DNA of 64,000 nt. Source: Gemmatimonadaceae bacterium (GTDB lineage Bacteria > Gemmatimonadota > Gemmatimonadetes > Gemmatimonadales > Gemmatimonadaceae). Location of the stretch: the NCBI GenBank assembly GCA_020846935.1, contig JADLCY010000002.1:1-64000 (forward strand). Direction: 5' to 3'. Numbering within the stretch: the stretch's first letter is position 1; every line of letters begins with the position of its first letter. This document shows positions 51,660-54,377 of the stretch, in pieces. The notes under the pieces are model-generated. The model did not search any database. It had not been told where the DNA came from and worked only from the letters and a program-made list of their open reading frames with translations. The translations under genes were made by a program, and so were the position numbers.

Positions 51660-51932
51660 ATGTCGCGTGCGTTTCTGAGAGATGATGCCGAAGGGGAGAT
51701 GCCCCGTCGCAACTATGCGTTGCCGGAGCGGGATGATCCCGGGTACGATCGGGCGGCGGCGCGTGCGCTGCTCGAGGCCGCGCGTGTGAACGAAACGCAG
51801 CTCGCCGAGCGCGCCACGGGGTACTACTGGGGCGAGCCGAGCCTTCGCGTGCACGTCGAGGAAGCGCTGCGCGACGCCGAGCGCGAAGGCGACGATCGAC
51901 TCGCACAGGTAGCGCGCCGCTTCCTGCGCTGA
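51660..51932 (+). CDS. Small acidic/basic helical protein
   Basis: 90-aa cytoplasmic protein rich in Arg, Glu and Ala. DPGYDRAAARALLEAARVNE is followed by a Tyr-Trp turn (ATGYYWGEPSLRVHVEEAL) and a helical end REGDDRLAQVARRFLR. The sequence looks like a three-helix bundle and is compositionally coherent, but I recognise no family. It ends 16 bp before the nuclease lipoprotein gene and may be co-transcribed. It is divergent from the LVIVD gene, with about 150 bp between. Confidence 0.65.
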   Translation: MSRAFLRDDAEGEMPRRNYALPERDDPGYDRAAARALLEAARVNETQLAERATGYYWGEPSLRVHVEEALRDAEREGDDRLAQVARRFLR

Positions 51933-51948: not shown

Positions 51949-53697
51949 ATGCGAGACTTTCGCCTTCGCGCCGTTGGCTGCGCGGCCTGGATCGTTGCCG
52001 CCGCCTCGTGCGGGTCAACGAGCACCGCACCTGATCCGGGCTCCGGCGCGACGCCGGTCGGTGTCCGGATCAGCGAGGTGCACTACGACAACGCGGGCAC
52101 CGACGTCAACGAAGCCATCGAACTGAACGGTCCCGCCGGAACGAGCATCACGGGCTGGCAGCTGGTGCTGTACAACGGCAGCACCGGTGCACCGTACGAC
52201 ACGCGCACGCTCAGCGGGACGATCCCCGCCACCTGTGCAACGCGGGGCGTGCGAGTGGAAGCCTATCCGGAGAACGGCATCCAGAACGGCTCGCCCGACG
52301 CGATCGCCCTCGTGAACGCGCTGGGCGTGGTCGTCGAGTTCATATCGTACGAGGGGACGGTCACGGCGGTCGGTGGCCCAGCGGATGGCTGGCGATCGAT
52401 GGACATCGGCGTCGTGGAGCTCGGCAACGAGGCGCCGGGACTATCGCTGCAGCGCGATGCCGCCGGCGCGTGGTCGGGGCCATTCGCTGCCACGTTCGGA
52501 ACCTGCAACGGCGCGGCCCCCCCACCACCGAGCCATACCATCAGCGTCAGCGGACGCTCGGCCAGCGACCCGCCCTTGCCCGTGGGCTTCGAAGACCAGT
52601 TGTTCGCGACGGTGCGGAACGCGAGCGGTCAGGTCGTGCCGACCACGGTGACATGGCGCTCGGAGACGCCGACGTTGGCGAGCATCGACGCGAACGGTGT
52701 GGTGCATGCACTCGGCCCAGGGGAGGCCGTGCTGCGCGCGACCGCCGCGGACGGCCTCACGACCGTCGCGTACACGCTGCCGACGCGCGTTGGCCTCCTG
52801 GGCGCCGCGGCGCTCTATGCAGGCAACACGGAGTTTGGTGAACCCAACGACGCGGACGCATCGGACGACGTCGTGGTCAGGCATCTGCAGTACACCGCAT
52901 CGTACAGTCCGCGCCGCGGCACGCCGAACTGGGTGAGCTATGACCTCGAGGCGTCGCACTTCGGAGCGGAGGATCGCTGCGACTGCTTCACGTTCGATCC
53001 GGCGCTGCCGCCCGGCCTCACGCGCCTGACGACGGCGGACTACACCGGGGTCGGAGCGTTCCACGGATACGCCATCGACCGCGGGCACCTCGTGCGCTCC
53101 TTCGATCGCACGGCCGGGAGCCTCGACAACGCGTTCACCTACTACTTCACCAACATCGTCCCACAGGCCGCGGACCTGAACCAGGGACCGTGGGCGGCGA
53201 TGGAGATCCACTTGAGCAACCTCGCCCGTCAGCAGGGCCTGGAGGTCTACGTCATCGCCGGGGTGGCGGGCAGCAAGGGCACGGTGAAGGGCGAGGGACG
53301 CATCGTGATTCCGGCGAGCACGTGGAAGGTCGCCGTGGTGCTGCCGCGCGATCAGGGGCTGGCAGCGGTGGAGGAGGCGGGTGACGCGCAGGTCATCGCC
53401 GCGATCATGCCCAACGAGCCCGGCATTCGGAACGTCGACTGGAACAGCTATCGCACCACGGTCGACGCCGTGGAAGCGCTGAGTGGGTACGACCTGCTGG
53501 CGCTTCTGCCGGACTCCGTCGAGAACGTGGTGGAGGGCACACGAGCCTCAGGCAGTGACTCGGCGCTCGGACGCGGCGCTGATGCGAGCCCTCGGCCGTC
53601 AGGTGGTGCTGTGGTTGAGCGCACTTCCGGAGTCTGGATCAGGGACCAGCATATCCGGATGGAGCCGCCGACACGTCGAGGGATGCTGCGGCGGTGA
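51949..53697 (+). CDS. Lipoprotein with lamin-tail, Ig-like and DNA/RNA non-specific endonuclease (NUC) domains
   Basis: 582-aa exported nuclease. The lipobox is AAASC near residue 21. A lamin-tail domain spans about 37-180 (VRISEVHYDNAGTDVNEAIEL, ITGWQLVLYNGSTGAPYD, VVEFISYEGTVTA). A BIG2-like domain follows at about 195-280. The NUC domain begins near 285: ASYSPRRGTPNWVSYDLEAS, with the catalytic DRGH motif at 377-380 (IDRGHLVRSFDRT), then YYFTNIVPQAADLNQGPWAAME supplying the metal-binding Asn. It would degrade DNA and RNA outside the cell for nutrient release or biofilm turnover. Confidence 0.9.
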   Translation: MRDFRLRAVGCAAWIVAAASCGSTSTAPDPGSGATPVGVRISEVHYDNAGTDVNEAIELNGPAGTSITGWQLVLYNGSTGAPYDTRTLSGTIPATCATRGVRVEAYPENGIQNGSPDAIALVNALGVVVEFISYEGTVTAVGGPADGWRSMDIGVVELGNEAPGLSLQRDAAGAWSGPFAATFGTCNGAAPPPPSHTISVSGRSASDPPLPVGFEDQLFATVRNASGQVVPTTVTWRSETPTLASIDANGVVHALGPGEAVLRATAADGLTTVAYTLPTRVGLLGAAALYAGNTEFGEPNDADASDDVVVRHLQYTASYSPRRGTPNWVSYDLEASHFGAEDRCDCFTFDPALPPGLTRLTTADYTGVGAFHGYAIDRGHLVRSFDRTAGSLDNAFTYYFTNIVPQAADLNQGPWAAMEIHLSNLARQQGLEVYVIAGVAGSKGTVKGEGRIVIPASTWKVAVVLPRDQGLAAVEEAGDAQVIAAIMPNEPGIRNVDWNSYRTTVDAVEALSGYDLLALLPDSVENVVEGTRASGSDSALGRGADASPRPSGGAVVERTSGVWIRDQHIRMEPPTRRGMLRR

Positions 53698-53730
53698 GCG
53701 GCGGCGGCCGGCTGGGGGCCACGATGCGAA

Positions 53731-53765
53731 GAGGGCCGGCGATGCGCGAAGCATCGCCGGCCCTC
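53731..53765. terminator. Strong hairpin between nuclease and RiPP genes
   Basis: Perfect 15-bp stem GAGGGCCGGCGATGC/GCATCGCCGGCCCTC with a 5-nt loop (GCGAA). It lies in the 94-bp gap between the convergent nuclease gene and the lasso-leader peptide gene, so it can end both transcripts. Confidence 0.85.
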
Positions 53766-53791
53766 GTCATCAAGAATCCGCCGAAACGGAA

Positions 53792-53965
53792 TCAGGACCG
53801 GATGCAGGCCCGCGGATCTCCGGCCGGCGCATTGCCATCGCAGTCCATGCCGATGCCGGGGATGAGATCGTCGCCGATGATGCGCTTGGTCGTTGCAAGC
53901 GGGTTGCGGCCAAGGGTCAGTTCGCGGAACGATCCGAACTTTTCGAGCTTCGGGGCCTCGTACAT
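53792..53965 (-). CDS. Precursor peptide with lasso-RiPP-type leader
   Basis: 57-aa precursor. The leader MYEAPKLEKFGSFRELTL carries the YxxP motif (Y2, P5), the G-S-F-R segment (11-14) and Thr17, which would be the -2 residue of a lasso peptide. The predicted core starts at G19. It has Thr25, Thr26 and Lys27 at core positions 7-9, where a ring-closing Asp or Glu is expected, so a classical macrolactam is not possible in that register. The 39-residue tail has C42 and C54 and three Gly/Asp-rich turns. AGGAG lies a few bases before the ATG. No lasso B/C maturation genes are in the window. The family name is from leader similarity only. Confidence 0.82.
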   Translation of the reverse strand: MYEAPKLEKFGSFRELTLGRNPLATTKRIIGDDLIPGIGMDCDGNAPAGDPRACIRS

Positions 53966-54377
53966 TGGTCTCCTCTGAGTCGCGGGTGAATTCGCGATGA
54001 CACAATGCAAGTCGCGGGCCACAGCCCTCCAGATCGTCGCCCAATGGTCCCGCCCCCTACGACACGCAAGCCGTTATGCGACATGATGTTGGCGGCACGA
54101 TACATCGTGGCAAACCGGAGACCGGGCAGGGCGTGCAAGGGGACCTTGTGCCCTGCCGTGCTGTGGCATGGAGCGACCCGGCGTGTGGTGCGTCGACAAC
54201 ACAGGGTGTGCGCCAGGTGCCTAACGGATTCTGGTTGTTGGCCTTGCGAGGGCGAGGGAGTACCCTCTGCGCGGTGGATTGCCTGACGAGAACTTCGACG
54301 GCCTCAATGGTCCGGTGGCTAGATTCGCGTCAGCAGCGGCCTCCTCGCGCCGCCGGCGCGCCTCTTTCCTCTTTATC

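Follow-up and report, generated by a model that had tools for sequence, protein, structure and literature searches.

A stand-alone second precursor of a variant lasso-leader RiPP lineage in Gemmatimonadaceae, with a conserved K-x3-G-x-D core block that suggests an unusual ring

The precursor gene and its surroundings

The window analyzed here, a 64,000-nucleotide stretch from the genome of a Gemmatimonadaceae bacterium (assembly G000; 15 contigs, with completeness rated at 100%), carries on its minus strand a small gene that runs from ATG to TGA and encodes a peptide of 57 amino acids, MYEAPKLEKFGSFRELTLGRNPLATTKRIIGDDLIPGIGMDCDGNAPAGDPRACIRS (Table 1). The strong ribosome-binding site noticed in the original prediction is present, and no B1, B2 or C maturation genes lie within the window, as had been stated there. 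The gene is followed by a strong hairpin, and a similar one (z -5.9) is found 3' of L006, a stand-alone relative in another genome. These hairpins are consistent with transcription of both genes as single-gene units. No sigma-70 consensus promoter was found at the window gene. Its neighbors encode a DNA/RNA non-specific endonuclease (51949-53697), which shows weaker matches to lamin-tail and Big_2 domains and is missing at the matching locus of G395 (L089, see below), and a NamZ muramidase. Plasmids and phages were searched for a mobile origin of the precursor, and no match was obtained. Its close relatives of the same family and the low dN/dS place it well above chance, and the predicted peptide gene is regarded as real.

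Table 1. Positions of the precursor gene and of predicted features within the window.
Feature	Position	Strand	Basis
Precursor gene	53792..53965	-	ORF; homologs; dN/dS about 0.07 relative to the C11 paralog
Ribosome-binding site AGAGGAG	53970..53976	-	4 nt 5' of ATG; sequence
Hairpin, probable terminator	53728..53768	-	3' of the stop codon; 18-nt arms; z -6.7
Leader, residues 1-18, YxxPxL ... GSFRELTL, Thr at -2	53912..53965	-	NF033521, residues 2-20; Tyr-Thr spacing
Predicted core, residues 19-57, if cleaved after Leu18	53795..53911	-	Canonical lasso cleavage rule (PMC10368454)
K27-R-I-I-G-D-D33, K-x3-G-x-D block with probable acceptor Asp33	53867..53887	-	13 family and near-family cores
Cys42 codon, possible tail disulfide partner	53840..53842	-	Invariant in alignments A2 and A3
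Cys54 codon, possible tail disulfide partner	53804..53806	-	Invariant in A2, nearly invariant in A3
Ser57, C-terminal, probable kinase target	53795..53797	-	Ser invariant at the C-terminus in A3; HprK-like kinase encoded in the C11 cluster

Leader peptide and predicted cleavage site

The assignment of a lasso leader is borne out by the NCBIfam model NF033521 ('lasso RiPP family leader peptide-containing protein'), which matches the peptide with an E value of 2.5e-8 and 33.5 bits at a curated cut-off of 19. The leader harbors YxxPxL and a Thr at position -2, and the canonical cleavage rule for lasso peptides places Tyr at -17, Pro at -14 and Leu at -12 (PMC10368454). The spacing from Tyr to Thr is 15 residues in the window leader and in all tabulated related precursors, and the Thr is invariant. 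An alternative Bradymonas-like cut with Ile at -2 (PMC10368454; DDLIP-G/N start), which would yield a 7-residue ring on Asp43, was rejected because Asp43 is not conserved in the homologs from G101 and G155.

A paralog within a complete cluster

The peptide had been described as an orphan. This holds for its immediate surroundings, where enzyme genes are absent, but not for the genome, since a paralog that is 88% identical to the window precursor lies in a complete cluster on another contig (C11:422281-422448). The genes of this cluster are arranged on a single strand in the order B1-B2-C-A-K-ABC-permease-NT, where A is the paralogous precursor. Matches to Pfam and NCBIfam identify a PqqD-like RRE (B1), NF033537 (B2), Asn_synthase with GATase_7 (C), an HprK_rel kinase (K), an ABC ATPase, an ABC-2 permease and an NTP_transf_5 nucleotidyltransferase (NT). 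B2 is the only Transglut_core3 protein of the genome and C is its only lasso-like Asn_synthase. Thus, C11 is the one place in the genome where enzymes for maturation of the window peptide could be identified. The whole-genome check called for in the original prediction recovers B1, B2 and C together, in keeping with its proposal of enzymes encoded elsewhere, and maturation of the window peptide in trans by the C11 enzymes is the likely route. Only two leaders in the genome score above the NF033521 cut-off, and the core of the paralog is essentially the same as that of the window peptide. Between the two precursor genes dN/dS is 0.065 and synonymous sites are near-saturated, which indicates two old copies that have both been retained. 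The window gene is thus best explained as a second, stand-alone precursor of a predicted lasso-type RiPP, a homolog under selection of the precursor in the only lasso cluster of the genome.

Relatives in other Gemmatimonadota

Close homologs adjoin C and K in G257 (L008) and K at a contig edge in G354 (L007), and lie in complete clusters in G101 (L043), which belongs to another genus, and G155 (L044). G395, which belongs to the same genus, carries two copies that stand alone (L006 and L089) and a contig with B1 (81% identical) and B2 (73% identical) that ends where C starts. L089 is located approximately 100 bases from an ORF that is 84% identical to the one at 51660-51932 of the window, which suggests a shared locus that lacks the endonuclease in G395. 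L089 and the window gene are not put forward as strict orthologs, because the window peptide is closer to L006 than to L089. Precursors that share the K-x3-G-x-D block but are more distant occur in G130 (L045), G199, G362 and G416 (L046, L047 and L135), G142 (L049) and G139 (L048b). Both features whose absence had been said to argue against a RiPP, the enzymes in the genome and a leader conserved among relatives, are present.

The K-x3-G-x-D block of the core

With numbering from the canonical cleavage site, T, T and K occupy core positions 7-9, and the core contains two Cys, as observed earlier. An Asp or Glu at these positions is missing from the cluster-borne paralog as well. The absence of the acid was correctly noted, but the core is no lone oddity: the missing 7-9 acid is a trait of the lineage and common to the relatives, and conserved core acids are present. 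The first acids of the core are Asp14 and Asp15 when G19 is taken as residue 1; in the full precursor they are Asp32 and Asp33. Asp33 ends a K-x3-G-x-D block, which a pattern search located in each of the 13 cores of the family and near-family and in 0 of 76 other distinct cores. Shuffling of the 89 distinct cores gave an expectation of 0.49 with this block compared to 13 observed, most of which share ancestry. The automatic alignment A3 sets L048b in a different register, and the motif of this core was taken from the direct pattern search.

The spacing from Lys to Asp is constant (i+6) in the 13 cores, while the N-terminal arms preceding the Lys comprise 1-8 residues; within the close family, the ring region varies in length in the stretch from core residue 1 to the Lys. 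The motif Asp is located at core position 8 in L046, 9 in L044 and L049, 10 in L045, 11 in L007, 12 in L089, 13 in L008, 14 in C11, L006 and L043, and 15 in the window peptide and L048b, a series that is continuous from 8 to 15. Ordinary ring closure is possible in L044, L046 and L049, which have the Asp at position 8 or 9. The block common to the relatives suggests an unusual ring; conservation of the Lys may also reflect something besides ring closure.

The cyclase and the acid at positions 7-9

The phylum-wide comparison covered 67 distinct cluster-borne precursors from Gemmatimonadota, 60 in clusters with C and seven in clusters without it. An acid at positions 7-9 was found in 54 of the 60 precursors with C and in none of the seven without (Fisher 2e-6, an optimistic value, as shared ancestry of the relatives overstates their independence). 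This indicates that acid and cyclase occur together. Five of the six C-bearing exceptions (L012, L008, L043, L045 and L048b) harbor K-x3-G-x-D. Their cyclases keep the SGGxDS and DGxGGD motifs, C of L008 being truncated by the contig end and left unscored. In the cyclase tree L012, L043 and L044 form a group (99/95), which is joined by L048b (92/99). As the lineage retains C and an invariant Asp33, this residue is the probable substrate of C. The earlier statement that the core cannot form the usual ring is valid only for a 7-9 residue ring closed by the alpha-amine from the canonical cut.

The cyclases of L012 (10594-12591), L043 and L044 carry SGGADS; the majority of the remaining lasso-type cyclases in Gemmatimonadota have SGGWDS or SGGYDS. 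This replacement of W by A is no proof of a wider pocket, because it also occurs in L044, which has its Asp at position 9. A search among sequence relatives of C revealed no lasso cyclase of solved structure. The second precursor of a two-precursor cluster (L182, 4841) has Asp6 and lacks both an acid at positions 7-9 and K-x3-G-x-D.

Five lineages of clusters lack C and have a leader peptide, B1, B2 and a kinase, namely L085 (3594), L086 (8904), L090 (1608), L106/L109/L121 (6743, 4875 and 2379) and L189 (8342). A lasso-type C elsewhere in these genomes was found only in G419, on another contig; the remainder yielded either no match or generic amidotransferases at approximately 25-32% identity. 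Possible products of these clusters are linear peptides with the leader cleaved and a phosphate attached. The loss of the cyclase together with the acid in these five other lineages serves as an internal control.

Comparison with known systems

Proteins of NF033521 share the leader with the window peptide, which scores above the curated cut-off, but this model spans the leader only and is silent on the core. In the paeninodin/pseudomycoidin type an HprK-like kinase phosphorylates the C-terminal Ser, a modification known from paeninodin (PMC9266682), and pseudomycoidin adds a nucleotidyltransferase. The C11 cluster resembles this type by its A, B1, B2, C, K and NT genes, and the C-terminal Ser is conserved; kinase gene and Ser together point to the phosphorylated subgroup. 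Unlike in this type, the ring acid is located at 14-15 within K-x3-G-x-D instead of 7-9, and the window precursor lies away from the cluster. Class IV lasso peptides, which have a tail-tail disulfide (e.g. pandonodin), share a pair of conserved Cys C-terminal to the presumed ring, whereas the putative ring of the window peptide is non-canonical and its disulfide is putative. Lariocidin B resembles the proposed product in having a Lys side-chain amide, formed by a second isopeptide bond to Lys2. However, this amide joins the C-terminal carboxylate, needs the clostripain-family peptidase lrcF and occurs besides a normal ring (PMC11451635). Macrocycles between side chains, a similar outcome, are also present in graspetides, but these are made by ATP-grasp enzymes, none of which was seen among the scanned genes of the C11 cluster. 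Due to the missing 7-9 acid, the window peptide is not classified among the canonical lasso peptides. It is better described as a lasso-leader RiPP precursor of a variant lineage, whose maturation is probably lasso-like up to the ring step.

Proposed maturation and ring closure

According to the proposed pathway, B1 of C11 would bind YxxPxL of the window leader, B2 would cleave after Leu18, with the Thr at -2, the HprK-like kinase would phosphorylate Ser57 and C would adenylate Asp33. The ring would then be closed on the heptad from Lys27 to Asp33, with the amine provided by the Lys side chain, or by its alpha-amine after a second cut. Use of the side chain would leave the N-terminal arm free and thus able to differ in length, as it does across the relatives. 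A disulfide may form between the two tail Cys, and the ABC transporter of C11 would export the product. That the peptide matures in trans and that Asp33 serves as the substrate of the cyclase, irrespective of the attacking amine, is considered slightly more probable than not. A Lys-based heptad ring, with Lys27 as the source of either amine, falls a little short of an even chance, and the specific case of a 7-residue lactam from the Lys side chain to Asp, formed by a lasso-type cyclase with the N-terminus unused, is by itself doubtful.

Published lasso cyclases activate an Asp or Glu at 7-9, which is attacked by the N-terminal alpha-amine (PMC9266682), and an engineered change in ring size by one residue already lowers production (PMC13352647). 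Among the papers surveyed on ring size and larger rings, none described a natural lasso ring whose amine comes from Lys or one with more than nine residues. Papers combining lasso peptides and Gemmatimonadota, judged by titles and term counts, offered passing mentions.

Alternatively, C might join the alpha-amine of residue 1, generated by the canonical cut, to Asp33, which would result in rings of 10-15 residues held by the tail disulfide instead of a tight ring. The invariant Thr at -2 and its fixed distance from the Tyr, the invariant Asp33 and the continuous cut-to-Asp series all fit this model, as does the single clade of the cyclases from L012, L043, L044 and L048b, three of which deviate from the usual SGGWDS. 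However, the known cyclases accept 7-9 residues (PMC9266682), and the fixed Lys-to-Asp spacing would be left unexplained despite a ring size that drifts between close relatives. The heptad ring is tentatively favored over this larger ring, since a drift from 8 to 15 would break the 7-9 rule and a fixed heptad would not; the larger ring is possible but on the unlikely side.

Removal of the arm after B2 cleavage, or by a shifted B2 cleavage, would lead to an ordinary ring of 7-9 residues, for instance a ring of seven with Lys27 as the first residue. Such rings are known (PMC9266682), Lys27 is exactly the seventh position from Asp33 (inclusive) in 13 of 13 cores, and a core starting at Lys27 would have 31 residues, within the reported range of 13-33 (PMC13352647). 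However, the three alternative cuts leading to a ring of 7, 8 or 9 residues show no conserved P2 residue, whereas the Thr at -2 of the ordinary site is invariant, and no extra protease was identified in the C11 cluster. This route is regarded as unlikely.

The same judgment applies to a peptide that is merely cut, phosphorylated and exported, and stays linear or disulfide-bonded as proposed for the C-less clusters. Five lineages indeed combine B1, B2 and K with acid-less cores, lasso-type C was not found in the checked genomes of C-less clusters apart from G419, and the tail of the C-less L090 is similar, GDCGPNVPVGDPSACGRS. The window lineage, however, keeps a motif-intact C beside its cluster-borne precursor, and also Asp33. 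A decaying duplicate without product, as might be suspected from the missing enzymes nearby and the missing sigma-70 consensus promoter, is very improbable in view of dN/dS values of 0.065-0.21 relative to the own-genome and same-genus copies, the intact ribosome-binding site and 3' hairpin, and the stand-alone copies of another species, one of them beside the same neighbor ORF.

Implications and other stand-alone precursors

Reviews describe lasso rings as 7-9 residues long and closed by the N-terminal amine, whereas this lineage places the Asp 10-15 residues from the canonical cut. With the machinery kept whole, the Asp displaced and the heptad between Lys and Asp fixed, the lineage constitutes a natural test of the requirements of the cyclase. 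Searches that demand a 7-9 acid beside enzymes would overlook this core type and remote copies alike. The papers surveyed on orphan precursors yielded no precedent. Lasso-type precursors that stand alone, away from any enzyme genes, and carry an ordinary Asp8 or Asp9 were also observed (L088, L097, L098, L100, L105, L108, L120, L122, L136 and L181). Several of their genomes hold a cluster elsewhere, and remote second precursors are recurrent in Gemmatimonadaceae.
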